The translations under genes were made by a program, and so were the position numbers. A stretch of DNA of 64,000 bases from Solibacillus sp. FSL H8-0523 (lineage in GTDB: Bacteria > Bacillota > Bacilli > Bacillales_A > Planococcaceae), in assembly GCF_038051985.1 (NCBI RefSeq), contig NZ_CP150291.1, positions 2,666,001 to 2,730,000 of the forward strand. The letters are read 5' to 3'. Below the pieces are notes generated by a model. That model had not been told where the DNA came from, did no database searches, and saw only the letters and a program-made list of their open reading frames with translations. The stretch's first letter is position 1. Each line of letters starts with the position of its first letter. Below, piece by piece: positions 1,245 through 17,409 of this stretch.

Positions 1245-1733
1245 TTATTCAGCTTTTACTAAGAATAAAGGTTGACCATATTCTACTAATTGGCCATCTT
1301 TTACTAAAATTTCTACGATTTCGCCTTTAATTTCAGCTTCGATTTCATTGAATAATTTCATTGCTTCTACGATACAAACGATTGACTCGTCGCCTACTTT
1401 ATCGCCTACTGCTACGAAAGCTGGTGATTCAGGGTTTGGAGACTGATAGAATGTACCAACCATTGGAGATGTGATTTTATGTAGTTCTGTTGTATCTCCT
1501 ACTGTTGCTGTTGGAGCTGGTGCCACTTCTGCTTTTGGTGCTGCTGGTGCTGCTACTGGAGCTTGAACTGGAGCTGGTGCTGCTTCAACTGCTTTTTTAG
1601 GAGCTACAACTTCCGTAACGCCATTTTTCTTTTTAAGTTTAACTTTTGCGCCATCTGCTTCGTACACGAACTCGTCAATTGAAGACGCGTCTACTAATTT
1701 GATAATTTCACGGATTTCTTGAACTTTGAACAT
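1245..1733 (-). CDS. accB: Biotin carboxyl carrier protein of acetyl-CoA carboxylase
   Basis: Carries the covalently bound biotin that shuttles carboxyl groups between AccC and the carboxyltransferase. The 162 residues show an N-terminal domain, an Ala/Pro-rich linker at about residues 45-75, and a C-terminal biotinyl domain with the EAMKL motif, the biotinylated lysine being residue 126. A GGGAGAG ribosome site precedes the ATG. First gene of accB-accC. In B. subtilis this pair also follows spoIIIAH, so the junction is conserved here. Confidence 0.97.
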
Positions 1734-1926: not shown

Positions 1927-2466
1927 TTAATTAAAAGGCTCGGTGTTAACGGTTACATTTACATTATCATCCATTTCAGTGCGTACAATGTAGACAATAT
2001 CATTTGCTTGCTGTTTGGATACGATTTCATCTGACATGACCGTGACCGCGATTTTTTGTTCGTCAATTCGGACAAGTGCATCCGGATAGCCGAGTGATCG
2101 AATGAGCATCTCCAACATTGCTTCTGATGATTCTAATTTAATCAATTCCTCCATTTCATTAAATGCAGTATTTTTTTCCTCAGGTGTTAACTGGGCAGAA
2201 GCGATTTTTTGCGTTAATTGCTCGCGTAGCTGACTTCGTTTATTACCTTGCTCTAAACGTACTTGCTGAAACATTTCACTTTCTGACGTTACGGTTTGTG
2301 ACCCATCCTGACTTACTCCTAGTATTTCCGCTTCATCCAGCGTATTATTCGTAAAAATAGCAAGTAAATTCGGTGTATTTTTATCTTCAACTATAAAATA
2401 GACAGAAATTACTGCCACTAAACTCGCTAAAGTTAAGAACCAGACTGTTCGTTTTTTTACTTTCAT
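1927..2466 (-). CDS. spoIIIAH: Stage III sporulation protein AH
   Basis: SpoIIIAH is the mother-cell membrane protein that binds forespore SpoIIQ to form the channel ('feeding tube') across the two membranes around the forespore. The 179-residue product has a short basic N-terminus, one transmembrane helix (about residues 8-26), a Glu/Gln-rich helical stretch and a C-terminal YscJ/FliF-like ring domain (about 85-175) ending in VNVTVNTEPFN. It is shorter than the B. subtilis protein (about 218). Its start overlaps the spoIIIAG stop by four bases, so the genes are coupled. Last gene of the reduced spoIIIA operon. Confidence 0.93.
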   Translation of the reverse strand: MKVKKRTVWFLTLASLVAVISVYFIVEDKNTPNLLAIFTNNTLDEAEILGVSQDGSQTVTSESEMFQQVRLEQGNKRSQLREQLTQKIASAQLTPEEKNTAFNEMEELIKLESSEAMLEMLIRSLGYPDALVRIDEQKIAVTVMSDEIVSKQQANDIVYIVRTEMDDNVNVTVNTEPFN

Positions 2467-2849
2467 TTCGCTTCCTCCTTAGGTTGCATCGCCACGACTT
2501 GAATACGATGCATTGGTATTTGCAGTACGTTTCCTACCGTCTTCTTTAATAACAGCTGCACCTTCACATCATTTGCTCCCTGTGCCACAACCATGACACC
2601 CGTAATTGATTGTTGTTGTGTAACAGCTAAAAATTGTTGCTGTTTTTGCTGTTCATAATGAAAATAGACGAATACTTGTCCAACTCCTTCCATTTCACTT
2701 AGTATTTTTGCGAGCTGCTGTTCTGACGTGTCTGTCCGATCTGTCTGCTGCGAAAAATTCATGCTGAAGAAAATCACAATCCCAATAAGAAACATGACAC
2801 CTATAAATAAAGGACGACTTGCTTTTGGTTTATCCACATTTGTAAGCAA
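2463..2849 (-). CDS. spoIIIAG: Stage III sporulation protein AG, short form
   Basis: SpoIIIAG forms a large ring in the mother-cell membrane as part of the SpoIIIA-SpoIIQ complex. This 128-residue protein has one transmembrane helix (about 13-30), then the family's hallmarks EGVGQVFVYF and GVMVVAQGA and a C-terminal helix ending in HRIQVVAM, so the ring fold is recognisable. The B. subtilis protein is about 229 residues; the missing length lies mostly in the insert that forms the ring's beta-barrel. The start is a TTG with a strong AAGGGGG site 6-8 bases upstream. Confidence 0.88.
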   Translation of the reverse strand: MLTNVDKPKASRPLFIGVMFLIGIVIFFSMNFSQQTDRTDTSEQQLAKILSEMEGVGQVFVYFHYEQQKQQQFLAVTQQQSITGVMVVAQGANDVKVQLLLKKTVGNVLQIPMHRIQVVAMQPKEEAK

Positions 2850-2903
2850 CTACGCCCCCTTACTTCAGCTAATTCATCATAATGTATGAAGCGCTTCACT
2901 GTT

Positions 2904-3038
2904 TTATGCTAAAAGTGAAGCAATCGATGTTGTCAAAAGAAGATATAACGCTAACTTGACATATGCTTGCCATTCCTTTTCTTCAACAAAAATTAATAAG
3001 CTACTCCCAAGCAAAACAAATAAAAACAATTCAACCAT
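2904..3038 (-). CDS. spoIIIAF: Minimal SpoIIIAF-like membrane peptide (44 aa)
   Basis: This 44-codon frame (MVELFLFVLLGSSLLIFVEE...IASLLA) sits exactly where spoIIIAF belongs, between spoIIIAE and spoIIIAG. Two hydrophobic helices flank a short charged turn containing EEKEWQAYVKL, which matches the layout of the N-terminal membrane hairpin of SpoIIIAF (about 206 residues in B. subtilis). The whole soluble C-terminal ring domain is absent. A GGAGGGAG site overlapping the end of spoIIIAE lies about 12 bases before the ATG. It may be a functional mini-SpoIIIAF or a remnant; position and topology support the first name only moderately. Confidence 0.6.
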   Translation of the reverse strand: MVELFLFVLLGSSLLIFVEEKEWQAYVKLALYLLLTTSIASLLA

Positions 3039-3041
3039 GCG

Positions 3042-3953
3042 CTATGAGCTCCCTCCAATGGACATCTGAGTAAAAAAGATACACAGCAAGACAATAAATA
3101 CAATCGCAAATCCTAATAAGCCACTAATGGCACAAGCTACGAATAACGTTTTTCCTACATCATCAAAAAGCGAACTGATTCTCGCATTGGTAAAGGGTTC
3201 AATGACGGCTCCAATGAATTTAAAGGTAAGTGCATGTACTAATAAAATTGCCGCTGGTGCAAATGCTGCGCTAAATACGACTGCTAAAAAAGAGACGCCA
3301 ATAAAAGTAGAAACAAGCGATTGTGATTTTTGAAAAAATGAGAGCCCTTCTACAATTAGATTGCCAATCAGCGGGATATTTTGTTCAATCAGCTTTTTTA
3401 TAGGGGATTTAACTGCATCGTTAATTTGGATAAGTGCAGCACCGGAAAAGGTTAGAATAGAAGTCAGGGCGACAACAGACGCAATGATAAAGCTAAGAAT
3501 CGAGCTGCGTATTAACTCCGAAGCTTTGGCAAATGAAATGGCCGGGAAAATTTTTGTCGCCACATCAAGGAGTAGCGCCAGAATTAATGAAGGAATAAGT
3601 AGCTTCGTTGCCACAAATAATAAAAATTGGATAATCAATATCACAATTGGATTCCACGCAAGCAATGTAAAGACGGACTGCATCGTCAGTAGCATGAGTG
3701 ACAAAATCGGAATGACGGCGACGAAAAAGTGTTGTAAGAGCGAAATGAGTTCATACAGTACAACAAACGCCTCAATAACAGGCTGTGCAAAACTCACAAT
3801 AAATAGCAGAACAAACAACTGTTCAATTAATGCAGCTTCATTTGGTACGATCGCTACAAACAATAAATAGAGCCCGATATAAACCATGCTCATTAGGAGT
3901 AAGTGCGAAATCGATTGAAGTGGTGTTGCAAAAAGTTGCAAAAACGTCTCCAT
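3042..3953 (-). CDS. spoIIIAE: Stage III sporulation protein AE, short form
   Basis: SpoIIIAE is a polytopic mother-cell membrane protein of the SpoIIIA channel. This 303-residue version has about eight hydrophobic segments and the family's central amphipathic stretch (SPIKKLIEQNIPLIGNLIVEG). The chosen ATG overlaps the spoIIIAD stop (TGATG); an upstream start would invade spoIIIAD. B. subtilis SpoIIIAE is about 399 residues with an N-terminal signal peptide and extracytoplasmic stretch, both lacking here. Translationally coupled to spoIIIAD. Confidence 0.9.
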   Translation of the reverse strand: METFLQLFATPLQSISHLLLMSMVYIGLYLLFVAIVPNEAALIEQLFVLLFIVSFAQPVIEAFVVLYELISLLQHFFVAVIPILSLMLLTMQSVFTLLAWNPIVILIIQFLLFVATKLLIPSLILALLLDVATKIFPAISFAKASELIRSSILSFIIASVVALTSILTFSGAALIQINDAVKSPIKKLIEQNIPLIGNLIVEGLSFFQKSQSLVSTFIGVSFLAVVFSAAFAPAAILLVHALTFKFIGAVIEPFTNARISSLFDDVGKTLFVACAISGLLGFAIVFIVLLCIFFTQMSIGGSS

Positions 3954-4330
3954 CACGACAGCCTTTCCAATAATCGAAGTATTGTTTGAAAAGGTAGAAC
4001 GAGTTGATTCACCCAATACACTACAATGGTTAAGCGCACCGAGAGTGTAACAAGCACGGCATATGCTTCATATTCCAATTGTTCGAGTAATGCGCAAAAG
4101 ACTTCTTTACATAAAAATAACAGCGCCGTATACAAAAGCCCTTTACTATAGGGAACGTTTTGAAATAATGTCGCTAGCTGTTGCCAGAGCGGAAATAATT
4201 GCGTGCGCACGATAAATTGCAGCAAAATAAAAAAGAAAATGATAACAATTATCGGATGAAGCTTGTCAAATAATTGCTGTATAAATAGCAGCAGCACGAG
4301 CAATAAAACAGAGGCAAATAGCGTGACCAT
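3953..4330 (-). CDS. spoIIIAD: Stage III sporulation protein AD
   Basis: Small integral membrane component of the SpoIIIA channel, 125 residues (about 133 in B. subtilis). Four hydrophobic segments are visible, with LIVRTQLFPLWQQL-type and LLEQLEYEAYA stretches in the loops. The start overlaps the spoIIIAC stop by one base and its stop overlaps the spoIIIAE start, so AC, AD and AE are translated as a coupled set. Confidence 0.9.
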   Translation of the reverse strand: MVTLFASVLLLVLLLFIQQLFDKLHPIIVIIFFFILLQFIVRTQLFPLWQQLATLFQNVPYSKGLLYTALLFLCKEVFCALLEQLEYEAYAVLVTLSVRLTIVVYWVNQLVLPFQTILRLLERLS

Positions 4331-4539
4331 TAGTTAATTGCCATTAACCATTGGAAAAATAGCGCGATTTCTTGAAAAAATAGCTTTAAGAAACGTAGCA
4401 GCTCAAGCGTCATGTACAAATAGGCAACGAAAAATAAAAAATAGGAAAATTCCTTTTTACCAAGCTGTTCAAAAAATAGATGCAACAGGGCGATGACGAT
4501 GCCGACTCCTGCAACGCGCAGCACATCTTGTAATTCCAT
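4330..4539 (-). CDS. spoIIIAC: Stage III sporulation protein AC
   Basis: A 69-residue membrane protein with two hydrophobic helices joined by the family signature VAGVGIVIALLH...FEQLGKKEFSYF; the GKKE turn is diagnostic. Size equals the B. subtilis protein. An AAAGGAGG site precedes the ATG. It is the first gene of the operon here, whereas in other sporulators it follows spoIIIAA and spoIIIAB; the next gene upstream is a nitronate monooxygenase, separated by a terminator. Confidence 0.93.
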   Translation of the reverse strand: MELQDVLRVAGVGIVIALLHLFFEQLGKKEFSYFLFFVAYLYMTLELLRFLKLFFQEIALFFQWLMAIN

Positions 4540-4563
4540 TTTTGCGCGCCTCCTTTACGACAA

Positions 4564-4571
4564 ACTATATG
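4564..4571 (-). promoter_or_regulatory. Candidate sigma-E -10 element for the truncated spoIIIA operon
   Basis: The minus strand reads CATATAGT, one mismatch from the sigma-E -10 consensus CATACANT, about 27 bases before the spoIIIAC ATG and just after the upstream operon's terminator. No good sigma-E -35 element is seen at the right spacing, so this is tentative. Confidence 0.3.
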
Positions 4572-4600
4572 CAAAAGTCTGCTTTTTAAGCACAAAAAAA

Positions 4601-4631
4601 CTGTATGAAAAGGTTTCGTCTTTTCATACAG
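4601..4631 (-). terminator. Rho-independent terminator ending the catabolic operon
   Basis: Perfect 12-bp stem (CTGTATGAAAAG and its complement) with a 7-base loop. On the minus strand it is followed by seven T residues. It lies between the nitronate monooxygenase stop and spoIIIAC, so it separates the catabolic operon from the sporulation operon. Confidence 0.93.
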
Positions 4632-4645
4632 CTTCTAGAAATGGA

Positions 4646-5647
4646 TTAAAGCATACTATCGATAATATCCTGTACAGATGCTTCTCTTGCTAAATAACCG
4701 TTCTCACCCATCCATAATGATAAATATTCTGGCTTGTTTTGAATCGCACTTTCTTTGCGTATATGTAACGTTAAATAATGTTGAATTGGATAAGGCGCAA
4801 CTTTTGCATCCTTTAATTCTTCGGTAAATTTATTTTTGATGCCTCGCGCAAATTTACCTGTAAATGCTTTTGAAAGCGTTGTTGATTCCTGCTCTGATGT
4901 TAAGATAGCATTTTTATGCACTTGACTCGCCTTGCATTCATATGTTGTCATTAACGCTGTGCCAATTTGGACAAAATCTGCACCTAACGTAAACATATGA
5001 TCTGCGTGCTCTTTGTTCATAATGCCACCAGCTGCAATAATTGGAATTATTAATTGCTCTTTTGCTGTTTTCACAAGCTCAGCTGTTGAAACTAACACAA
5101 GCTCTTGTGTAAATGAGCCACGATGTCCCCCGGCTTCGCTTCCCTGTACAACAACTGCATCAAAACCTGCCGCTTGTACGGCAAGTGCTTCATCAATCGT
5201 TGTTGCCGTGCCGATTAAAAATACACCTTCATTTTTTAAACGATTCATTACTTCCTCAGATGGGATACCAAATGTAAAGGAAACAATTTTTACACCTTCG
5301 TCTAAAATCGCTTGGATTTGGCCTTCAAATACTTCTGTTGAAACAACCCGTTGCGTATCAGGAATACCTAAATCCTCATAAATCGGCTGTAATGCTGCAC
5401 GCGCATCCTGTAGCACACCTATGTCAATTCGAGGCTCTTCTTGTATAAATAAATTCACGCTAAAAGGCTTATCGGTAAGCGCTTTTACCGCTTGAATAAA
5501 TTTTTGAGTTTCAGCACCATTTAAATACCCTGCACCAACAGAACCTAACGCACCTGCTTCACAGCATGCTGCGACAAATGATGGTGTCGTAATCCCGGCC
5601 ATTGGGGCTTGAATAATTTTATGCTGTAACGTATAACCTGTCGTCAT
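4646..5647 (-). CDS. Nitronate monooxygenase family flavoprotein
   Basis: FMN-dependent TIM-barrel oxygenase of the nitronate monooxygenase (2-nitropropane dioxygenase) family. It opens with IIQAPMAGITTPSFVAA, and carries VVQGSEAGGHRG (phosphate and substrate region, about residue 170) and GADFVQIGTALMTT near residue 225. The 333-residue start (MTTGYTL) has an AAAGGTGG site just upstream. Last gene of the 11-gene catabolic operon. The same family includes FabK-type enoyl-ACP reductases; the surrounding catabolic genes favour an oxygenase or nitronate-detoxifying role, but the substrate is not readable. Confidence 0.82.
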   Translation of the reverse strand: MTTGYTLQHKIIQAPMAGITTPSFVAACCEAGALGSVGAGYLNGAETQKFIQAVKALTDKPFSVNLFIQEEPRIDIGVLQDARAALQPIYEDLGIPDTQRVVSTEVFEGQIQAILDEGVKIVSFTFGIPSEEVMNRLKNEGVFLIGTATTIDEALAVQAAGFDAVVVQGSEAGGHRGSFTQELVLVSTAELVKTAKEQLIIPIIAAGGIMNKEHADHMFTLGADFVQIGTALMTTYECKASQVHKNAILTSEQESTTLSKAFTGKFARGIKNKFTEELKDAKVAPYPIQHYLTLHIRKESAIQNKPEYLSLWMGENGYLAREASVQDIIDSML

Positions 5648-5728: not shown

Positions 5729-6550
5729 CTACTGTTTTGATCGTGGATCTAATAAATCACGCACAGCATTACTTAGCATGTATAACCCTAATACCATAAA
5801 CGTAATCGCAATCCCTGGCGCATATACATACCATGGTGCACTCGTCAAATAAGACTGTGAATCTTTTAGCATTCGCCCCCAACTAGGATCCGGTGGCTGA
5901 ACACCAAGTCCTAAATAGCTAAGGGCAGCTTCCGCTAACATCGCAGTAGCAAATGTAATCGTCGCCGCTACAATAATTTGAGAGGAAATATTCGGCAAAA
6001 TATGACGAAACATAATGCGTGGAGCTTTTGCGCCAATTAACTTTGCCGCTAATACATATTCCGCTTCACGATGTTGCACGAAGCCACTCCGTACGATACG
6101 AGCGATGCTTGGTATCGCAATGACACCGAGTGCGATAGACGTATTCACAATACCAGGACCAAAGATAGCTACGAGCATTAATGCTAAAATGATGCCGGGA
6201 AACGCCATAAGCGCATCTAAAATACGACTTAATACTTCGTCAGTCCAACCACCAAAATAACCGGCAATACCACCAATTAACACTCCAAATGTTACCCCGA
6301 TAGAAACTGTTATCACACCTACTAAAAAGGCTGTTTGTGTCCCTTTCATAATCCGACTAAAAATATCACGACCGAATTCATCTGTACCAAACCAATATGT
6401 GCCGTTCGGTGCTAGTAACTTTTGTGCAATATTCATTGCCGTCACATCATGAGGCGTGTAAAAAAAGCTTATAATCATAATTAGTAATAACCCACCAACA
6501 ATAACCGAGCCGATGAGCAAATTGAAATTTTTCAATAGTTTAGTAACCAA
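5729..6550 (-). CDS. Peptide-type ABC transporter permease (DppC/OppC family)
   Basis: Inner-membrane permease of a peptide/nickel-type importer, 273 residues. It has an N-terminal helix, the periplasmic motif YWFGTDEFGRDIFSRI that marks the DppC/OppC group, about six transmembrane helices and the permease loop LIGAKAPRIMFRHILPN (about 185) that docks the ATPase. The start is TTG behind an AAAGGTGG site. It follows the DppB-type partner by 15 bases and pairs with it in the membrane. Confidence 0.93.
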   Translation of the reverse strand: MVTKLLKNFNLLIGSVIVGGLLLIMIISFFYTPHDVTAMNIAQKLLAPNGTYWFGTDEFGRDIFSRIMKGTQTAFLVGVITVSIGVTFGVLIGGIAGYFGGWTDEVLSRILDALMAFPGIILALMLVAIFGPGIVNTSIALGVIAIPSIARIVRSGFVQHREAEYVLAAKLIGAKAPRIMFRHILPNISSQIIVAATITFATAMLAEAALSYLGLGVQPPDPSWGRMLKDSQSYLTSAPWYVYAPGIAITFMVLGLYMLSNAVRDLLDPRSKQ

Positions 6551-6565
6551 CCTTGCTCACCACCT

Positions 6566-7507
6566 TTAGCGAATTCGAATTCGTGGATCGATAACAGAAT
6601 ATAAAATATCAATGATAAAATTAATCGTTACAACTGCAATCGTAATATACATGACGATCCCTTGTACGAGTGGAAAATCACGGTTATTAATCGCCGTCAC
6701 TAATAGCTGCCCTACACCTGGAATTGAAAATACCTGCTCAACAATAATCGTTCCTGCCATTACCTCTGCTGTAATTAATCCGAAAACGGTTAAAATCGGT
6801 ATCATTGCATTTTTTAATACATGCTTGTACATAACGGTGCGTTCTACAATACCTTTACTGCGAATTGTCCGAACATAGTCAAGGCGGATTTGTTCTAAAA
6901 TCGACGTACGGACGTAGCGGAAATTAATCGCTATTTGTGGAATCGCAATGGTAATCGCAGGCAATAACAACGTGCTTAAAGCCCCTGTAATACTTATGGA
7001 CCAAGGTATGTAGCCACTAATTTTGAAAAAATCAACATTCATAGCGACATAAATAATAAGCATCATCCCTAGCCAAAATGAAGGAATAGCCATCCCAATT
7101 TGCGTTGCAGTTGATAGCGTTAAATCACTTAATTTATTTTGGCGACGTGCAGCAAACATCCCAAGTGGAAGTGACACGACACATACGATGAAAAGCGTAA
7201 TTGTTGCTAATGAAAGTGTAACTGGTAGTCGATCGAGCATTAAATCCATTACTGGCATTGAAAACCGAATCGAATTTCCTAAATCCCCTGTAAAAAGTCC
7301 TGTCATCCAATCAAAATATTGCACATATAGCGGGCGGTCCAAGCCTAGCTCAGACCGCAAGTTTTCAATTTGTGCAGGATCCGCCTCTGTGCCAAGCATT
7401 GTTAACACGGGGTCTCCAGGTAAAATTTGAAACACGCCAAATGTAATAAACGATACAAAAATAACAGTAACAATTAAGAGGACGAAGCGGCGTAGTAAAT
7501 AGTACAT
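6566..7507 (-). CDS. Peptide-type ABC transporter permease (DppB/OppB family)
   Basis: Second permease of the same importer, 313 residues. It opens MYYLLRRFVLLIVTVIFVSF, with the family's ILPGDPVLTMLG and LGLDRPLYVQYFDW near residues 30-65, six transmembrane helices, and the ATPase-docking loop RSKGIVERTVMYKHVLKNA near 220. It sits 17 bases downstream of the substrate-binding protein gene and 15 upstream of the DppC-type permease. Confidence 0.94.
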   Translation of the reverse strand: MYYLLRRFVLLIVTVIFVSFITFGVFQILPGDPVLTMLGTEADPAQIENLRSELGLDRPLYVQYFDWMTGLFTGDLGNSIRFSMPVMDLMLDRLPVTLSLATITLFIVCVVSLPLGMFAARRQNKLSDLTLSTATQIGMAIPSFWLGMMLIIYVAMNVDFFKISGYIPWSISITGALSTLLLPAITIAIPQIAINFRYVRTSILEQIRLDYVRTIRSKGIVERTVMYKHVLKNAMIPILTVFGLITAEVMAGTIIVEQVFSIPGVGQLLVTAINNRDFPLVQGIVMYITIAVVTINFIIDILYSVIDPRIRIR

Positions 7508-7524
7508 TACGCTTCAACCCTTTC

Positions 7525-9045
7525 TTAATTTGACATTTTCACTTCAGACATATCATGGAACCAGAATGGATACGATTTTAAACCTGATACCGCTTTATCT
7601 GTGCCCCAAATTACTTGGTAGTCTGCAATATAAACAGCCGCTGCTTCCTCTGTTAAAATGCTTTGTGCCTGCTTGAAGTACTCTACTTGCTTATCTGGAT
7701 CCGTTTCAAGTAATACTTCACTCATCGCTTTATCAAAGTTTGCATTGTTGAATCGGAAGAAGTTTTCACCATCGTTCGTTGAAATGTAATCATTTAAAAT
7801 TTCATAAGCAGATGGGCGACCTGTTAAATCGATAGCCGTCATTTCATAGTCACGACCGAAATACACACGCTCTAACCAAATACCCCATTCGACTACTTCA
7901 ATTTCAACATTAATACCGATTGCCTTTAAATTTTCAACGACAATTTGTGCAATGTTTCCATATATTGCGTTGTGAGATGATACCGTAATTTTTGTTGAGA
8001 AGCCATCCGCATAACCTGCTTCTGCTAGGAGCGATTTCGCCTTTTCAACATCAAATTGCCAAACGTCTACAAGCTTCTCATCATGGTATTTACCCATAGC
8101 TGGACTCATATTTGAGCCAAGTTTCACCGCTTGCCCGTTAAATACAGAGCTTATAATATCGTCTTTATTAATCGCCATTGCAATCGCTTGACGTACTTTC
8201 ACATTATTAAACGGTTCTTTCTCTTCATTAAATGTAACAACTAACGATGAGTTATTTTGCTGTTTCGTCGTATTAAATTCATCCGTTACTTCATCCATAC
8301 GCGCCCAAGGTACACCTGTTAAATCAACTTCATTTGCAAGTAACGCCATAATCGCCGCTTGATCATCTGATTGGAAGTTAAACGTTACTTTATTTAAATA
8401 CGGTAAACCGTCACGCCAGTAGTCTTCATTTTTCTTCAGCACTAAATTCATACCTGGAGCATATTTCTCATATGCGAAGGGCCCTGTACCGATTGGGTTT
8501 TCATTATGTTTGCCATCATTTGTAGCAGGTACAATACCTGATGTTAATGCTGTTAGTGCATATAAGAAGTTTGAATTCGGCTCTTTTAATGTAAATTTAA
8601 ATGTCTTATCGTCCACAACTTCTGTTGAAACGACATTATCAAAATTATTTTTCATTTTCTCTCCACCGTTTGTACCCATTAAACGATCAAACGTATATTT
8701 CACATCATCCACCGTTAAATCTGAACCATCATGGAATTTCACACCTTGTCGAATCGTAAATGTGTACTCTAACCCATCATCCGATACTTCATACTTTTCT
8801 GCTAACGCTTCTCGCAACGAGCCGTCAGTATTTGGAGCCATTAATCCTTCAAACATATTTAAAATCATTTGGAATGAAATCGACGCAGTTGCTTTATGTG
8901 GATCTAAAAAATCTGGATCATCATTTACACGCACGATAATTTCTTGCGCATCATCCCCTGAAGAGCTACTGTTTGTATTATCAGAACACGCTGCTAATAC
9001 AGCAGCAACTAACACCATTAAAAACAATAGAGCATATTTTTTCAT
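7525..9045 (-). CDS. Peptide-type ABC transporter substrate-binding lipoprotein (DppA/OppA family)
   Basis: Extracellular solute-binding protein, family 5, 506 residues. The signal peptide ends in the lipobox LAAC (lipidated Cys near residue 20). Then come an Asp/Ser-rich tether, LDPHKATASISFQMILNMF, and the family signature region KYEVSDDGLEYTFTIRQGVKFHDGS. It captures a peptide or peptide-like compound for the two permeases and two ATPases of this operon. The specificity (di- or oligopeptide, or another amide) cannot be read from sequence alone. Confidence 0.94.
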   Translation of the reverse strand: MKKYALLFLMVLVAAVLAACSDNTNSSSSGDDAQEIIVRVNDDPDFLDPHKATASISFQMILNMFEGLMAPNTDGSLREALAEKYEVSDDGLEYTFTIRQGVKFHDGSDLTVDDVKYTFDRLMGTNGGEKMKNNFDNVVSTEVVDDKTFKFTLKEPNSNFLYALTALTSGIVPATNDGKHNENPIGTGPFAYEKYAPGMNLVLKKNEDYWRDGLPYLNKVTFNFQSDDQAAIMALLANEVDLTGVPWARMDEVTDEFNTTKQQNNSSLVVTFNEEKEPFNNVKVRQAIAMAINKDDIISSVFNGQAVKLGSNMSPAMGKYHDEKLVDVWQFDVEKAKSLLAEAGYADGFSTKITVSSHNAIYGNIAQIVVENLKAIGINVEIEVVEWGIWLERVYFGRDYEMTAIDLTGRPSAYEILNDYISTNDGENFFRFNNANFDKAMSEVLLETDPDKQVEYFKQAQSILTEEAAAVYIADYQVIWGTDKAVSGLKSYPFWFHDMSEVKMSN

Positions 9046-9056
9046 TGAAATGCCTC

Positions 9057-10019
9057 CTATTTTCGGATACTTTCATAACTCTCAACATTTGCTAAACGCT
9101 TAGAACCTTTCACTGCACAAACGATTGCTTGCTCCATTGCTTCAATAGCAAACTGCCCTAAATAATCAAGTGGATATTGCTTTTCTCCTGTTCCTAGTAC
9201 AAAAATCGTATCCCCATCAAACATTGTATGCACTGGGTAAATAGTATGAGCAAGTGCATTATGCGTCAGCTGTGCAAGCTTTTTCGCTTCTGCTTTTGTC
9301 AACTTTGCATTGATGGCAACAGCACCAATTGTCGTATTAGCACCTGGCGTTGTTTGGACGTTTGCATTTTGCTTTAGTAAAGTGCAGCTATCCAGCCATT
9401 CCCCCGACGCATGATTGCGACTCCCTGCGATTGTTTCATTTGTTATAGGATCCTTTACATCTCCAACAGCATTGACCGCAACAATTGCACCCACAACTAA
9501 GTCATTCTCGCCTTGAATAGAGCTCGAGCCTAATCCCCCTTTCATAAAGTGTGCGATACCAGCCAATTTCCCAACAGTCGCGCCATAGCCAACGCCTACA
9601 TTGCCATTGTCAAAAGGACCAGTCATGGCACCTTGTGCAGCTTCATAACCCATTTCTTTTGTCGCGAATGCGGTCGAGCTACCAATCAGTAAGTCAAAAA
9701 TAACTGCTCCTGGTACGATGGGTATAGTTGCCACCTCAACAAATAAGCCAATTTGCTGTTCCGCCAAATATTTCATCACACCTGAAGCTGCTTCCAATCC
9801 GAAGGCACTACCACCTGCTAATGTAATCGCATGTACTTTTTCTACTCCGTTAATGGGATCAAGCGCATCAGTTTCACGCGTACCTGGTGCAGAACCACGC
9901 ACATCCACACCGCAAACAGCTCCATCCTTCGCTACAATGACTGTACAACCTGTCACACCCTGTTCATCAACGGCATGCCCGACTGTAATCCCTGCTACAT
10001 CGGTTATGTTGTTATACAT
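9057..10019 (-). CDS. P1 family (S58) self-processing aminopeptidase/amidohydrolase
   Basis: Member of the DmpA/BapA/NylC family of N-terminal nucleophile hydrolases, which cleave themselves into two chains and then hydrolyse N-terminal residues from peptides, beta-peptides or amide oligomers. Visible: ITDVAGITVGHA at the start, VRGSAPGTRETD near 40-51, LAGGSAFGLEAA near 68-78, and NTTIG with the expected self-cleavage between Asn228 and Thr229, making Thr229 the nucleophile. 320 residues, no signal peptide, so cytoplasmic. Its start overlaps the end of the DppF-type ATPase gene, so it probably acts on what the transporter brings in. Confidence 0.88.
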   Translation of the reverse strand: MYNNITDVAGITVGHAVDEQGVTGCTVIVAKDGAVCGVDVRGSAPGTRETDALDPINGVEKVHAITLAGGSAFGLEAASGVMKYLAEQQIGLFVEVATIPIVPGAVIFDLLIGSSTAFATKEMGYEAAQGAMTGPFDNGNVGVGYGATVGKLAGIAHFMKGGLGSSSIQGENDLVVGAIVAVNAVGDVKDPITNETIAGSRNHASGEWLDSCTLLKQNANVQTTPGANTTIGAVAINAKLTKAEAKKLAQLTHNALAHTIYPVHTMFDGDTIFVLGTGEKQYPLDYLGQFAIEAMEQAIVCAVKGSKRLANVESYESIRK

Positions 10020-10998
10020 CCGTTACTCCCTCCTCGTATAAAAAACAAGCGACTTGCTGCGCATCTGAACCTTGAAGAACCGGCTTCTGTTGCTGGCATT
10101 GCGGCATTACATGAGGACATCGCGTATGAAATACACAACCGATTGGCGGATTCATCAGATTAGGTAAATCTCCTTTTAAAGGAATTGTCTCTCGCTTTTT
10201 TGTGAAATCTATTACTGGAATGGCTTGAAGCAACGCCTTCGTGTAAGGATGCTTTGGTGTAGCAAATATGTTTTCCTTTTCACCGATTTCAACGATATTT
10301 CCTAAATACATGACTGCTACTCGGTCGCTAATATGCTTCACGACACTTAAATCATGCGAAATAAATAAATACGTTAAATCAAATTCTTCCTGCAAATCCA
10401 TCATTAAGTTCAGTACTTGTGATTGAACCGATACATCGAGTGCCGAAACAGGCTCATCACCAATAATAAACGCTGGATTAATCGCAAGTGCTCTTGCAAT
10501 CCCAATGCGTTGCCGCTGTCCACCTGAAAATTCATGCGGAAACTTATCGGCTGCATCTGCACGCATACCTACTTTTTCAAGAATTGTTAAGACGTGCTTT
10601 TGCCGCTCCTCTTTTGACATTGATAATTGAAGCTTCATTGGCTCTTGTAATATATCACCGACTCGCATGCGTGGATTAAGGGATGAAAACGGATCTTGGA
10701 ACACCATCTGCATCGCGTTTCGGTATTTTTGTAACTTGCTTCCTTTTAGCTTCGTAATAGGCGTATTGCGATAATAAATTTCTCCGCTCGTCGGCTCTGT
10801 TAACTTCAAAATTGTACGCCCAAGCGTTGATTTACCGGAGCCTGATTCTCCTACTACACCGAGTGTCTCCCCTTTATAAATAACGAGTGAAATATTATCG
10901 ACTGCTTTGACAACCTTTTTCTCCTCCTTCAAACTTTTTCGTTTTACAGGAAAATGTGTTTTCAAATTTTTCACTTCAATTAATATTTCACGCGTCAT
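10012..10998 (-). CDS. Peptide-type ABC transporter ATPase (DppF/OppF family)
   Basis: Cytoplasmic ATPase, 328 residues. Walker [10 protein letters not shown] (about 50), Q-loop [13 protein letters not shown], signature [15 protein letters not shown] (about 160) and Walker [13 protein letters not shown] are intact. The C-terminal oligopeptide-transporter extension has the Cys-rich [15 protein letters not shown] typical of Opp/Dpp ATPases (a likely iron-sulfur site). Overlaps the DppD-type gene upstream by 11 bases and the P1 peptidase gene downstream by 8. Confidence 0.95.
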
Positions 10999-11995
10999 AA
11001 GCAGTCACTTCCTTTTCTTTATATAAATGACAACGCACCATCTGACCATCTCCAAAAATTTTTTCAGAAGGTATCATGCGCTCACAAATATCCATCGCAT
11101 ACTGACAGCGAGGGGCAAAGCGACAGCCAGCTGGGAAGTTTAAAGGAGACGGTACGGTGCCTGGAATTGTAGGCAATCGTCGCTCGTTCGTTGCAATTGA
11201 TGGCATCGTTTGAAGCAGTGCCGTCGTATAAGGATGTTTCGGTTCAGTAAATATTCGTTCTACCGGGCCAGACTCAACAATTTGACCCGCATACATGATC
11301 ATCACCCGATCTGCTGTTTCTGCTACAACGCCCATATCATGCGTAATAAACAAAATGGATGAACCGTGTTCTTCTTTCATTTTCAGCATTAATCGTAAAA
11401 TTTGCGCTTGAACCGTTACATCGAGTGCAGTCGTAGGTTCATCCGCTAATAATAGTTTCGGATTGTTAGCCATTGCCATCGCAATCATAACGCGCTGCCT
11501 CATCCCCCCTGATAATTGGTGCGGATATTCATGAATTACTTTTTCGGCATTCGCTATGCCCACTTCCTTTAACATCAATAATGCGATGGCAAAAGCCTGC
11601 TTTTTATCCACTTGTTGATGTCGGCGAATTCCTTCAACTAGCTGACTACTAATTTTAAAGACTGGATCAAGAGACGTCATCGGTTCTTGAAATATCATCG
11701 ACATTTCATTGCCACGTACACTGCTCATATCATCTAGCTTCATTTGTAATAAATCTTTGCCATTCAACAAAATTTCCCCAGATGTAATGCGACCAGGCGG
11801 CATTTGTAAAAGGCGCATAATGGCAAGCGATGTCACACTTTTACCACTGCCTGATTCGCCTACAAGTGCCAACGTCTCCCCTTCAAATACTTGAAAGCTA
11901 ACCGCTTCGACAACATTCGCTTGCTTACCGTTTGCCAAATCAAACGATATCGATAAATTAGCGACTTGTAATACAGCTTTTTTGTGCTCGGTCAT
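10988..11995 (-). CDS. Peptide-type ABC transporter ATPase (DppD/OppD family)
   Basis: Second ATPase of the importer, 335 residues. Walker [12 protein letters not shown], signature [16 protein letters not shown] and Walker [15 protein letters not shown] are intact, and the C-terminal [15 protein letters not shown] cluster is present. GSGKSVTS rather than GSGKST and the SGGMRQR signature distinguish D-type from F-type subunits. Lies 7 bases after the aldehyde dehydrogenase gene and overlaps the F-type ATPase gene. Confidence 0.95.
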
Positions 11996-12001
11996 CGGCG
12001 A

Positions 12002-13447
12002 TTACCTCCCATGAACGTTGTAACGAATCGCGATATTTTTCATTTGCGTATAGTTACGTATTGCAACTAATCCCTTTTCTCGTCCGATTCCGCTCTTTTT
12101 ATAGCCTCCAAACGGCATTTGAATACCGCCCGCTGCACCGTAATTATTAATGAACACTTGCCCAGCCTTTATACGACTTGCCATGAAATGCGCGACGTCA
12201 ATATCGCGTGTCCAAACACCAGCTACTAACCCGTAATCTGTACTATTGGCAAGCTGTAGTGCTTCCTCTACCGTTTCAAATGTAAAAACAGTTAATACAG
12301 GACCAAAAATTTCTTCGACCGCAAGTGGATGCGTTACATCAAGTCCATCTACAATTGTGGGCTCCACATAATAGCCATCCTCATAGTTTTCTACACGTAA
12401 AGCTTTGCCGCCAATTAACACTTCACCATCGCGCTGCGCTAGCTCTAACAAGGCCGTAATTTTTTTGAATTGGTTCGCATTTAAGAGCGGACCCATATCT
12501 AAATTTTGCTCCCCTGCCCCAATGCGGATTTGCTGAAAGCGTTCAACAAGCTTCGCACAAAATGTTTCTTTGTATGATTTTTCAATTAATAAGCGTGCAC
12601 CTGCTGAACATGTTTGGCCTGCGTTTTGAATAATCGCACGCATAACCCCCTCAAGTGCAAGCTCCTCATTCACATCTGCAAATACAATGTTCGGTGACTT
12701 GCCACCAAGTTCTAACGTTACAGGTACAATGTTTTTAGCTGCTGCTTGCATAACAGCAATGCCTGTAGGTACGGAGCCCGTAAACGTTATTTGATGAATG
12801 CTTGAGTGACTCGATAAATAAGCCCCTACATCTTTACCAAACCCTGTCACATGCTGAATAATGCCTTTCGGTAGTCGCGCATTTAACCATTTCACTAGCT
12901 CATGCGTCGTTAATGGCGTATCTTCAGCGCTCTTAACAATTACTGCATTGCCTGTCGCAATCGCCGCGGCTACACTGCGTGAAGTAATTTGGATTGGATA
13001 ATTCCACGGCACAATATGTACTGTCACGCCAATGGGTTCCAATACGACCGCATTGAAAATCCCGTCTTCAATCGGAATTGTGTCACCCATTACTTTATCT
13101 GCCGCACCACCATAAAATTCAAAGTAACGTGCTGCCGCTTCAATATCGCCACGTGCTTGTTGTAATGGTTTCCCCACATCTAAGCTTTCCAACTGCGCAA
13201 AATGTTCCGCGTTTTGGCGAATAAATTGAGCAAGCTCCACTAATATTTGGCCACGCTCGAATGGCTTTACACTACGCCATTCCTCACTTTCAAAAGCCTC
13301 ATTTGCTATACGGACCGCGTCATCAATTTGTTCATTCGTTGCATTCGCAATTGTTACGAGTGGCTTCCCAGTGGAGGGGTTATAAACCGTTATTTTCTCT
13401 TCTCCCTCGACCCATTTACCATTTATACACATCGGAATATGTTCCAT
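12002..13447 (-). CDS. NAD(P)-dependent aldehyde dehydrogenase
   Basis: Oxidises an aldehyde to the acid. The 481-residue protein shows the Rossmann motif ITFTGSVPTGIAVMQAA, the catalytic glutamate in VTLELGGKSPNIVFAD (near 250) and the catalytic cysteine in NAGQTCSAGARLLIE (near 285), plus EEIFGPVLTVFTF near 380. It resembles betaine-aldehyde and gamma-aminobutyraldehyde dehydrogenases, but the substrate is not fixed by sequence. Lies 15 bases after the SDR gene, so an alcohol-to-aldehyde-to-acid route is possible. Confidence 0.9.
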   Translation of the reverse strand: MEHIPMCINGKWVEGEEKITVYNPSTGKPLVTIANATNEQIDDAVRIANEAFESEEWRSVKPFERGQILVELAQFIRQNAEHFAQLESLDVGKPLQQARGDIEAAARYFEFYGGAADKVMGDTIPIEDGIFNAVVLEPIGVTVHIVPWNYPIQITSRSVAAAIATGNAVIVKSAEDTPLTTHELVKWLNARLPKGIIQHVTGFGKDVGAYLSSHSSIHQITFTGSVPTGIAVMQAAAKNIVPVTLELGGKSPNIVFADVNEELALEGVMRAIIQNAGQTCSAGARLLIEKSYKETFCAKLVERFQQIRIGAGEQNLDMGPLLNANQFKKITALLELAQRDGEVLIGGKALRVENYEDGYYVEPTIVDGLDVTHPLAVEEIFGPVLTVFTFETVEEALQLANSTDYGLVAGVWTRDIDVAHFMASRIKAGQVFINNYGAAGGIQMPFGGYKKSGIGREKGLVAIRNYTQMKNIAIRYNVHGR

Positions 13448-13462
13448 CGTTTGTCACCCTTT

Positions 13463-14179
13463 CTATAAGCCGCGTCCACCATCGACATGAAGTGTCGTTC
13501 CCGTAATAATGTTTGATTGCTCTTGCAATAAAAAGCGCACTGCATTAGCAATATCTTGCGGTTCAATTAATCGACCGAGCGGAACCGAGGAAGCAAAAAT
13601 TTGTGCCTTCGCTTGCTCTACATCAGTACCTACTGCCGCAAATTGCCCAAGCATAGACGTGTTTGCCGGCCCTGGATGAATTGTGTTGACGCGCACATTA
13701 TAAGGAGCTAATTCAATTGCCATCGCTCTAGAAAAGCTTTCAGCCGCACCTTTAGACGCGATATATGCTTGAAGCCCTGGTCGAGGGCGTACAGCTGAAA
13801 TCGAAGCAATATTAATAATGACACCATCGTTTGCTTCTTTCATTTTCGGAACAACTGCTTTTGCTAATAAAAATAAGCTCTTTACATTGACGTTCATTAA
13901 TTTATCCCAATAATCAGCTGATACCTCTTCAATCGGTGTTGCGGCTTGTGCTAAGCCATGTACATTAATAAGTCCGTACACATTCGAAAGTGATTCGACA
14001 ATTGTTGTTATCTTTTCCTCATCGGTTACATCACATTGTTTATAATGAAAATTTGGCTGCTCGAGTGGCTGCTCTGTTGCTAAATCAAGTCCGACTACTT
14101 CATAATTTTCCATTAATAGCTGTTGAACAATTACTTGACCCATGCCACCAGCAGCACCTGTTACTATTACAGTTTTCAT
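13463..14179 (-). CDS. Short-chain dehydrogenase/reductase
   Basis: NAD(P)-dependent oxidoreductase of the classical SDR family, 238 residues. Cofactor motif TGAAGGMG near residue 8, NVHGLA in place of NNAG, catalytic Ser in NIASISAVRP, and catalytic YIASKGAAESF (Tyr and Lys) are present; the C-terminus ends TLHVDGGRGL. The ATG at 14179 has an AGAGGTG site 6 bases upstream that overlaps the end of the preceding gene. Member of the catabolic operon; substrate unknown. Confidence 0.88.
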   Translation of the reverse strand: MKTVIVTGAAGGMGQVIVQQLLMENYEVVGLDLATEQPLEQPNFHYKQCDVTDEEKITTIVESLSNVYGLINVHGLAQAATPIEEVSADYWDKLMNVNVKSLFLLAKAVVPKMKEANDGVIINIASISAVRPRPGLQAYIASKGAAESFSRAMAIELAPYNVRVNTIHPGPANTSMLGQFAAVGTDVEQAKAQIFASSVPLGRLIEPQDIANAVRFLLQEQSNIITGTTLHVDGGRGL

Positions 14180-14180
14180 A

Positions 14181-15254
14181 TTAGACACCTCTCATTTCAT
14201 AGCAGCCTTTTAAAGCCATGCAAATTGCTTCGCCCATTTGTTGCGTCGTTGCTGTACCGCCAATATCTGCAGTTTTCACTTCGCTTTGCGCTAACACTTG
14301 CTCAATCGCTTGCACAACAAGTTGCTCCAAATCAGGACGCCCAACATGCCCAAGCAGCAATGCAAGTGACCAAATTTGAGCAATTGGATTAGCGATGCCA
14401 CGCCCAGCAATATCAGGAGCTGAACCATGTACAGGCTCGAACATTGAGGGATACGTGCGTGTCGGATTAATGTTACCAGACGGAGAAAGTCCTAACCCTC
14501 CGATAATGGCCGATCCTAAGTCTGATAAAATATCACCAAATAAATTGGAAGCGACAACGACCTCAAATTCCTCTGGGCGTTCTACAAAGTAAGCAACGAG
14601 CGCATCGATATAATAACTTTTTAGTTGCAGTTGCGGATAGCGGCTCATCGTTTCTTGAACAATAGCATCCCAAAATTTCATTGTATGAGTGACCGCGTTC
14701 GATTTTGTTGCACTTGTTACCGTCGACTTTTTATATTTCAGCGCATAATCACATGCAGCACTCACAATATTAGCGATGCCTTCTTTCGTCATCACCGTAT
14801 TTTGTATCGCTAGTTCACGCTCTGTTCCACCGTATAACCGGCCACCGCTATTGGAATATTCACCTTCCGTATTTTCACGGAAAATAACGAAATCAATTGG
14901 TTCCTTTGTTGCAAGCGGTGAAGCAATACCTGGCAGCGATTTTACTGGTCGGAAGTTGACATATTGCTGAAACTGTTTACGAATAGGCATAATAAGCTCC
15001 CAAACGGTTACATCGTCTGGTACGCGTGCATCACCAATTGCACCAAATAAGATTGCATCATATTGTGCAAGCGTTTCCAGACCATCTTTCGGCATCATAC
15101 GCCCTGTTTGTAAATAATAGACGGAATCCCAATGAAACGTCATTGTCTCCACTTCAAGGGTTTTATCAAGCGTCTGCAATGTATCCAATACTGTTAGCGC
15201 CTGTTCCATTACTTCTGGACCAATGCCATCTCCTGGGATTACAGCAATTTTCAT
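14181..15254 (-). CDS. Tartrate/D-malate dehydrogenase-like (isopropylmalate dehydrogenase superfamily)
   Basis: Metal- and NAD-dependent beta-decarboxylating dehydrogenase, 357 residues. It opens MKIAVIPGDGIGPEVM. The segment FRENTEGEYSNSGGRLY followed by GTERELAIQNTVMT matches the tartrate/D-malate dehydrogenase branch rather than LeuB. The Asp metal ligands lie in ASNLFGDILSDLGSAIIGGLG. The start overlaps the M20 hydrolase stop (ATGA). LeuB itself cannot be excluded, but no other leucine gene is nearby. Confidence 0.83.
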   Translation of the reverse strand: MKIAVIPGDGIGPEVMEQALTVLDTLQTLDKTLEVETMTFHWDSVYYLQTGRMMPKDGLETLAQYDAILFGAIGDARVPDDVTVWELIMPIRKQFQQYVNFRPVKSLPGIASPLATKEPIDFVIFRENTEGEYSNSGGRLYGGTERELAIQNTVMTKEGIANIVSAACDYALKYKKSTVTSATKSNAVTHTMKFWDAIVQETMSRYPQLQLKSYYIDALVAYFVERPEEFEVVVASNLFGDILSDLGSAIIGGLGLSPSGNINPTRTYPSMFEPVHGSAPDIAGRGIANPIAQIWSLALLLGHVGRPDLEQLVVQAIEQVLAQSEVKTADIGGTATTQQMGEAICMALKGCYEMRGV

Positions 15255-16480
15255 TGGTCGTCACCTGCCAAAAATAATAATGCCGCTTTTCGATAAATTG
15301 CAGTTGTTTCCGCCAACTCTTCAATATCTACATATTCATTTATTTGATGTGGTATGTCACGATCCCCTGCGCCAATCGTTACAATCGGTATTCCGTGCAC
15401 ATGTAAAAATGTGCCATCTGTCGCCCCTGGTACACCATTATAAATTGGCTCCTTTTGTAGCACTTGTTTTACAGCATGATGCACTACTTCAACGATTGGA
15501 TTTGTTCGTTCTGTAGATGTAGCTGGTCGATTATCGAGCACCGTTAGTTCCACTTTAAAGTCAGGGTCGGATTCTTTCATACGGGCAATAATCGCTTCAA
15601 TTTTAGCTAGTAGCTCATCATGGTTTTGTGCCGGAACAGTTCGAATATCTAGCGTCGTCATACATTGATCCGGTATAACATTAATTTGAGCATCACCTAT
15701 TACAGGCGCCTGTAAAATTGTCGGAGTAATCGAAGGCCATTTCAGAAACGGGTCCTCTCCTAAACGCTCTTGCTCTTCCTTTTCTAGCTTCTCCATTTCT
15801 GTAATAAAGCGTGCCATACGCCAGTTCGGGTTAATACCGCTCCATGAAATCGCGCCGTGTGCCATTTTGCCATAAATATCGACGCGCAAGCGGATGGCGC
15901 CACGCTGTGCAATGCACACTTGGTTTTCTTCAGGCTCACAAATAATCGCCCCATCTACTCCATCTGCCCAGCCTTGTGCGATAAAATGCTTAATACCAAG
16001 CATAAGCCCTTCCTCATCACATGGAATGCATAAAATAATTTTACCTGTAAATTCTTCTTGATCGAGCAATATCGATTGTACAGCTGTAATCATGCATGCT
16101 AAGTTGCCTTTTGTATCATTTGTCCCACGACCATACATGCGTCCCGTAATGATTTCAGCGCCAAACGGGTCATAAGTCCATGCATCGCGGTTTCCTTCCG
16201 TAACAACATCCGTATGCCCTTCAAACAAAAGTGTTTTACCAGGCTTTTTTGAATCGATAATGCCAATGACATTTGGTCTACCTGGCGCTACCTCTTCCAT
16301 ATGCACTTCAATGCCTAAATTTAAATTCCGTAAATACTCGGCAACGTAATTTGCTACTTCCTGTTCATTTCCTTTGCCATCATTTCGAAAAACGCTTTCA
16401 ATTTGTACCAGCTTTTGTGTCAATGCAATGACTGTCTTTCGATCTCGTACATATGTTGCAGATTGTTTCGTATCAACCAT
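15251..16480 (-). CDS. M20 family metallopeptidase/deacylase (ArgE/DapE/CPG2 type)
   Basis: Two-zinc amidohydrolase, 409 residues. Zinc ligands are visible in LLFEGHTDVV (His/Asp near 95), YGRGTNDTKGNLAC (bridging Asp), PCDEEGLMLG (catalytic Glu pair) and GATDGTFLHVHGIP (C-terminal His). A lid domain lies between. Members remove acyl groups or C-terminal residues from small peptides such as N-acetylornithine or N-succinyl-diaminopimelate. First gene of the 11-gene operon, behind AGGGGTG and a CodY-like site. The precise substrate is unknown. Confidence 0.87.
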   Translation of the reverse strand: MVDTKQSATYVRDRKTVIALTQKLVQIESVFRNDGKGNEQEVANYVAEYLRNLNLGIEVHMEEVAPGRPNVIGIIDSKKPGKTLLFEGHTDVVTEGNRDAWTYDPFGAEIITGRMYGRGTNDTKGNLACMITAVQSILLDQEEFTGKIILCIPCDEEGLMLGIKHFIAQGWADGVDGAIICEPEENQVCIAQRGAIRLRVDIYGKMAHGAISWSGINPNWRMARFITEMEKLEKEEQERLGEDPFLKWPSITPTILQAPVIGDAQINVIPDQCMTTLDIRTVPAQNHDELLAKIEAIIARMKESDPDFKVELTVLDNRPATSTERTNPIVEVVHHAVKQVLQKEPIYNGVPGATDGTFLHVHGIPIVTIGAGDRDIPHQINEYVDIEELAETTAIYRKAALLFLAGDDQ

Positions 16481-16848: not shown

Positions 16849-17409
16849 TTATTGAGCACGTGAAACGTAAGAACCTTCAGTTGTGTTGATGATTAATTTG
16901 TCGCCTTCATTTACGAAGAAAGGTACGTTAACATATAAGCCCGTTTCCATTTTCGCAGGTTTCGTACCGCCTGAAGCCGTATCACCTTTAATACCTGGTT
17001 CTGTTTCAGCAACTTCAAGAACTACTGTGTTTGGTAATTCGATACCGATTAACTCACCTAGGTAAGATTGGATGTGAAGCTCCATGTTTTCTAATAAGTA
17101 TAATAACTCATCTTTAATTTGTACTTCATTTAATGTCGTTTGGTCATAAGACTCCATGTCCATGAATACGTGCTCGTCACCTTGTGCATATAAATATTGC
17201 ATTTTGCGGTTATCGATCATCGCTTTTTCTACTTTTTCACCAGCGCGGAATGTTTTTTCTGTTACGTTACCATTACGTAAGTTACGTAATTTAGAACGTA
17301 CGAATGCTGCACCTTTACCTGGTTTTACGTGTTGGAATTCTAATACGCGGAATAAGTTACCTTCTACGATAATTGTTAAACCTGTACGGAAATCATTTAC
17401 TGAGATCAT
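16849..17409 (-). CDS. efp: Elongation factor P
   Basis: Binds ribosomes stalled at proline runs and stimulates peptide bond formation. The 186 residues show the KOW-like N-terminal domain with [16 protein letters not shown] (modifiable Lys32 at the loop tip) and two OB domains, ending [24 protein letters not shown] site precedes the ATG. It follows the Xaa-Pro peptidase gene by 18 bases, as in B. subtilis, where spoIIIAA normally comes soon after. Confidence 0.97.

Follow-up and report, generated by a model that had tools for sequence, protein, structure and literature searches.

A family-wide reduced spoIIIA operon in the Planococcaceae, without spoIIIAA and spoIIIAB and with spoIIIAF cut to a stub

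The 64,000-nucleotide stretch of Solibacillus sp. FSL H8-0523 analyzed here (contig NZ_CP150291.1, positions 2,666,001 to 2,730,000; hereafter the window) carries a spoIIIA operon that begins with spoIIIAC and lacks spoIIIAA, the gene for the motor ATPase, and spoIIIAB. The minus-strand order is spoIIIAC, AD, AE, a 44-codon frame, AG, and AH (genes and products are hereafter AA to AH), followed by accB and accC; the canonical succession AC, AD, AE is thus present, with AD recognized by a weak profile match and by its position. From sequence comparisons, we consider it probable that the operon of the whole family Planococcaceae is an ancestral, stripped-down, but still working mother-cell-to-forespore complex. 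The loss of AA and AB is not new, having been published in 2012 and 2021 (PMC3533761, PMC7924749). New, as far as the open-access literature searched goes, is that this loss forms part of a family-wide reduction together with an AF stub and shortening of AG and AE; no report of these three changes as one pattern was found in that literature. The closest named relatives of the window's genome by AE identity are Solibacillus palustris (84%), S. merdavium (71%), and S. faecavium (70%). NCBI taxonomy places Solibacillus in the Caryophanaceae, a family also named Planococcaceae (PMC6971209).

The original prediction, that the operon starts at AC directly after the terminator of an unrelated operon and lacks AA and AB, held: a terminator-like hairpin lies between a nitronate monooxygenase gene and AC, and neither AA nor AB scored over its cut-off in the complete genome (4,144,207 bases, one contig). 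The sole match to the AA profile (TIGR02858, 281-bit cut-off) reached 24 bits and proved to be the transcription terminator Rho (TIGR00767, 669 bits), while the AB profile (PF09548) had no match at all. In a sample of 250 order genomes, which includes the window's own genome and belongs entirely to one family with 19 genera, neither protein exceeded its cut-off. The three weak AB matches in this sample sit in open frames of 340, 464, and 2955 residues and were rejected. Second-best matches to the AA profile, whose identity was examined for genomes G115 and G172, are ComGA and not AA (NF041000, 340 and 344 bits against a 300-bit cut-off; PF00437, expectation value (E) 1e-84); ComGA, present in the corresponding loci L127 and L128, is a secretion ATPase that belongs to the SpoIIIAA superfamily. 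An assembly gap was also discarded as the cause of AA loss, since several genera include genomes assembled into one contig that carry AE and show no AA over cut-off (G002, G003, G004, G038, G069, G154, and G159, for example). The proposal that AA and AB had moved elsewhere is therefore not borne out by either the complete genome or the order sample.

To place this loss, we compared the distribution of AE (PF09546) with that of SpoIVA, the base of the spore coat; this and all further row comparisons across the AE, SpoIVA, AF, and AA listings were made by eye. AE is present in 184 of the 250 order genomes and SpoIVA in 188 (184 of them over cut-off), each in 13 of the 19 genera, and all 184 AE-positive genomes are SpoIVA-positive among the listed rows. 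Both proteins are absent from the other six genera. AE is retained where sporulation genes are retained and absent where those are absent. Four genomes have SpoIVA without AE: in genus g2, G001, G037, and G240 combine weak SpoIVA matches with no AE, whereas G003 retains both, and sporulation may be under loss in this genus; in the fourth, G231 (SpoIVA E 1.6e-163, about 160 contigs), the absence of AE may be an assembly gap.

Across 279 genomes sampled from the whole class, including 26 from Planococcaceae/Caryophanaceae, AE scored over cut-off in 196 (18 inside the family and 178 outside), AA in 175, and full-length AF (PF09581) in 178, the last two in none of the 26 family genomes. Outside the family, the 178 AE-positive genomes are also the 178 AF-positive ones, and each of them matches AA at E 1e-64 or better, so that AE without AA is limited to Planococcaceae/Caryophanaceae in this sample. 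AE matches had E values of 1e-18 to 1e-37 inside the family and of 1e-65 or better outside it, apart from one further match under the cut-off (G487, E 4.5e-4). In G290, a 280-contig assembly from another family, AA matched at E 2.4e-116 and AE had no match. An AE scan of named genomes returned only the three close relatives.

Comparison of the interval between efp and AC, which AA and AB occupy in the outgroup L109, shows the place where the two genes would be expected. In five genera (regions L119, L121, L122, L124, and L125), pepP and efp are followed directly by AC after about 160–415 bp, with no AA or AB between. A nitronate monooxygenase gene occupies the gap in the window's genus (including L002–L004) and in two others (L120, L126). 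Both efp and accB flank the operon in 11 of the 12 family regions scanned; L123 has accB only, with no efp nearby. The simplest reading of these arrangements would be a single in-place deletion of AA and AB before the family split, with insertions following later.

We then compared 61 family loci from the 13 AE-positive genera (the window, L002–L004, and L013–L069) with ten outgroup operons carrying complete spoIIIAA–AH (L109–L118). The family sample is not random: L013–L042 are the best-scoring AE matches and L043–L069 were picked to span all genera. Three genomes occur twice (L002/L069, L003/L055, and L004/L056), leaving 58 distinct loci. A short reading frame right after AE, which we call mini-AF, was seen in all 61 loci and 13 genera. 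It has 44–59 codons with an ATG, GTG, or TTG start in 50 loci, and 32 of these 50 share an identical four-base overlap with the AE stop. The window's mini-AF by itself had no Pfam match; as a family profile, mini-AF aligned to residues 3–47 of full-length AF with a probability of 94.9 and E 4.8e-8. Controls, in which mini-AF was set against outgroup AC, AD, AE, AG, and AH and reversed mini-AF against AF, gave probabilities of 0.2–0.9, and chance likeness to any membrane helix pair was rejected on these values. By the alignment and the low control probabilities, the membrane part of AF is retained and its soluble domain gone. Among the class-sample genomes, none of the 26 from the family matched full-length AF with this soluble ring-building domain (PF09581).

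The remaining genes are changed to different degrees. Identity to the window's AC ranges from 50 to 93% over the 16 rows listed, which cover 13 genera. The AD slot holds an open reading frame of 117–138 residues in all 61 loci, and the AD profile weakly matched AD proteins from eight of the ten outgroups, those with a picked frame of at least 125 residues, with a probability of 66 and E 5.6e-5. AE has only 6–47 residues ahead of its first conserved block in the 61 family loci, compared with 93–117 in the ten outgroups, an N-terminal loss of about 80–100 residues; fold comparison of the AE model gave no match with E ≤ 0.001 (best E 1.0), and no fold was assigned to it. The window's AH matches PDB entries 3uz0 (E 5.3e-16) and 3tuf (E 2.2e-15).

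AG still has its ring-building domain, with a piece removed. The window's AG matches SpoIIIAG in PDB entry 5wc3 (E 3.4e-6), and its predicted structure combines a membrane helix with a domain of helix-strand-strand-helix-strand order (mean predicted local distance difference test score 78.5). This model matched the Salmonella needle complex (E 3.8e-4), PrgK domain 2 (E 9.9e-4), 5wc3 (E 1.3e-3), and FliF rings, with modest TM-scores of 0.43–0.47 by query; PrgK and FliF are ring-forming proteins of type III secretion and flagella. The stretch from strand 1 to strand 2 (to GVLVVA) measures 16–34 residues in the 54 family loci where the AG pattern was recognized (seven of the 61 were left out) and 63 residues in all ten outgroups. 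We take the missing stretch to be the part with which SpoIIIAG makes an upright beta-barrel, so that, compared with FliF and SpoIIIAG rings, family AG would be without most of the segment where the barrel forms. Large upright beta-barrels have been described for the rings of B. subtilis SpoIIIAG and FliF (PMC8270960).

Several signs suggest that the remnant still works. Ratios of nonsynonymous to synonymous change (dN/dS, by a simple counting method) were low within the genus when the window was compared with S. palustris or L065: 0.03 for AC, 0.12–0.14 for AD, 0.06–0.12 for AF, 0.23–0.26 for AG, and 0.13–0.14 for AH, the S. palustris values being 0.03, 0.14, 0.12, 0.23, and 0.14, respectively. 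For AE, the ratio was 0.05 against L065 only, the S. palustris pair being saturated. By these ratios, the remaining spoIIIA genes, which are still clustered, are under purifying selection. In 60 of the 61 loci, a CATANNNT box lies no more than 50 nt upstream of AC, at a distance of 29–35 nt in 59 of them, whereas 500 single-base shuffles gave 2.6 such loci on average and 9 at most; the scoring took in the -10 side of the promoter only. This box agrees with the sigma-E -10 consensus and marks a candidate mother-cell promoter. The window's genome also has SpoIVA (E 7.6e-158), SpoIID, SpoIIGA, SigE, and SigG, the last under the TIGR02850 cut-off and over that of NF006071. An M23-domain gene adjoining SpoIID fits SpoIIQ by position and domain, and another sigma gene, at 1,175,476, may be SigF. 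SpoIIM (TIGR02831) had no match in this genome, in line with its published loss in the family. Endospores have been described for some Solibacillus species (PMC6971209). Of 66 B. subtilis spore genes, 25 were found in sporulating Sporosarcina strains, which belong to the same family (PMC5930826).

Because the remnant genes are constrained, the -10 box and other sporulation genes are retained, and relatives form spores, decay of sporulation in the window's genome is unlikely. The broader reading, in which the operon is decaying and sporulation is disappearing from the lineage, could draw on the six genera without AE and SpoIVA and on the three g2 genomes with weak SpoIVA and no AE, but dN/dS stays below 0.3 for all six genes in the window pairs, the frames are open across 13 genera, and SpoIVA is strongly matched in the window's own genome; we regard this reading as very improbable. 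The suggestion that sporulation is being lost, offered alongside relocation as one of three options in the original prediction, is thus not supported for this genome, with its sporulation genes, SpoIIQ-like gene, and dN/dS well below 1. The remaining option, that the channel works without AA and AB, fits best of the three, as judged from gene content and selection.

As to how such a complex might operate, we tentatively put forward an ATPase-free conduit, in which AC, AD, AE, mini-AF, AG, and AH, together with SpoIIQ, could well feed the forespore. The core in the mother-cell membrane would consist of AC, AD, AE, and mini-AF; AG and AH would build rings across the gap between the cells, and SpoIIQ would meet these rings from the forespore side. 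Lacking a dedicated ATPase, the complex would let small molecules through by diffusion or along an ion gradient, and such passage would be enough to sustain late forespore gene expression.

A number of observations weigh against a working, reduced complex. In B. subtilis, deleting AA, AB, AE, or AG one at a time brings sporulation down to 0.001–0.003% (PMC12720343), and the ATPase motifs of AA are required there (PMC2703783), so that a working complex without AA runs against expectation. The homology of AD is weak, and over all ten pairs dN/dS reaches 0.29 for AF (on two changes) and 0.37 for AG. In genus g6, 11 loci carry the mini-AF frame (52 codons as read) without a standard start codon (L016, L021, L022, L023, L028, L029, L032, L036, L039, L041, and L018). 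Ten g6 loci read ATAA or ATAG at the junction of AE stop and AF start, where many others overlap as ATGA, and mini-AF there has an apparent AUA start; in L018, the mini-AF ATG is followed by a stop two codons on. Within g6, the mini-AF frame is conserved, with a dN/dS of 0.09–0.34. Finally, at least two family genomes (G115 and G172) encode ComGA, an ATPase of the AA superfamily.

This last point bears on the possibility that a different ATPase encoded elsewhere has replaced SpoIIIAA and the complex is still ATP-driven, with ComGA, of the competence pilus and the type II/IV secretion superfamily, as the first candidate. The requirement for AA in B. subtilis (PMC2703783, PMC12720343) would favor a replacement, as would the finding that the second-best AA-profile matches in these two genomes are ComGA. 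By contrast, since loss or reduction extends to AB, the soluble domain of AF, and the N-terminus of AE, a module seems to have been dropped, not a single component exchanged. ComGA accompanies AA in B. subtilis, so the presence of ComGA alone tells little, and we judge replacement unlikely. We also considered a remnant that moves no molecules and persists only as a zipper, formed by AH with SpoIIQ, and as a scaffold in engulfment. Retention of AH and of the SpoIIQ-like gene is consistent with it, and with SpoIIM not found in the window's genome, another engulfment aid might be more needed. A zipper, however, would require only AH and SpoIIQ, whereas AC is well conserved across 13 genera and the predicted membrane proteins AC, AD, and AE are constrained (dN/dS 0.03–0.14 in the window pairs), which makes this explanation unlikely.

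Set beside the canonical SpoIIIA-SpoIIQ complex of B. subtilis (spoIIIAA–AH), the reduced family complex has the same gene order from AC through AH, with efp upstream and accB downstream, and the same AG ring-building domain and AH, together with a gene for a putative SpoIIQ-like partner. It differs in having no AA and no AB, an AF cut to about 44–59 residues, an AG without most of the 63-residue stretch, an AE without the N-terminal extension, and a strongly diverged AD. A 2012 paper listed spoIIIAA, AB, AD, and AF as missing from the spore-forming Lysinibacillus sphaericus C3-41 and set that genome aside as unreliable (PMC3533761); the 184 genomes with AE and without AA agree with its gene set. 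In 2021, AA, AB, and AF were reported missing in spore-forming Lysinibacillus, Solibacillus, Sporosarcina, Rummeliibacillus, and others, with the mechanism left to be elucidated (PMC7924749). The reduced sets of L. sphaericus, Solibacillus, and Sporosarcina in these papers, which likewise lack AA and AB, are the same case in the same family, but there AF is scored as missing, as are AD and AG in places, whereas we find AF as a conserved stub and AD and AG present in changed form. Jeotgalibacillus malaysiensis, an exception by the family's older bounds, has AA and lacks AC and AE (PMC7924749), a pattern seen nowhere in our sample.

The coordinates of the operon and its surroundings in the window are collected in the table. 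The nitronate monooxygenase gene, although inside the originally noted range up to 5647, is outside the spoIIIA system. Between it and efp lies a block of about 11 kb (window 5729–16480) that, by reading of its open frames, encodes an M20 peptidase, dehydrogenases, an aldehyde dehydrogenase, and peptide ABC transport; the block is missing at this place in L002–L004, which are S. palustris, S. merdavium, and S. faecavium.

Table. Features of the spoIIIA region in window coordinates
Feature	Position	Strand	Description
spoIIIAC	4330..4539	minus	69 residues, first gene of reduced operon; TIGR02848 E 2.4e-8, 34 bits, below 57-bit cut-off
spoIIIAD	3953..4330	minus	125 residues, strongly diverged; PF06686 E 0.011, under cut-off
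spoIIIAE	3042..3953	minus	303 residues, without N-terminal extension of outgroup AE; PF09546 E 9.3e-20
mini-spoIIIAF	2904..3038	minus	open reading frame of 44 residues, N-terminal membrane part only
spoIIIAG	2463..2849	minus	128 residues, TTG start; TIGR02830 E 9.7e-14, under cut-off
spoIIIAH	1927..2466	minus	179 residues; PF12685 E 4.7e-23
sigma-E-like -10 box CATATAGT	4564..4571	minus	32 nt 5' of spoIIIAC
terminator-like hairpin	4596..4636	minus	between nitronate monooxygenase gene and spoIIIAC; 1 found versus 0.4 expected in shuffles
nitronate monooxygenase gene	4646..5647 (ATG 5647, stop 4646)	minus	PF03060 E 1.4e-83; directly upstream of AC
accB	1245..1733	minus	usual downstream neighbor of spoIIIA operon
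efp	16849..17409	minus	usual upstream neighbor; here about 12 kb from AC

The role of SpoIIIA-SpoIIQ is still debated, with proposals of a secretion machine, a feeding tube, and a zipper (PMC12720343). The family shows which parts drop together: the ATPase and AB have gone along with the soluble domain of AF and most of the insert in AG, whereas the membrane core, a stub of AF, and shortened ring proteins are kept. Gene tables in which AF and AD are scored as absent are corrected here. Its living strains offer a natural test of transport without a motor. If the ATPase-free conduit is true, the secretion-system-like motor module would be an add-on to the spore-feeding channel and not its essence.

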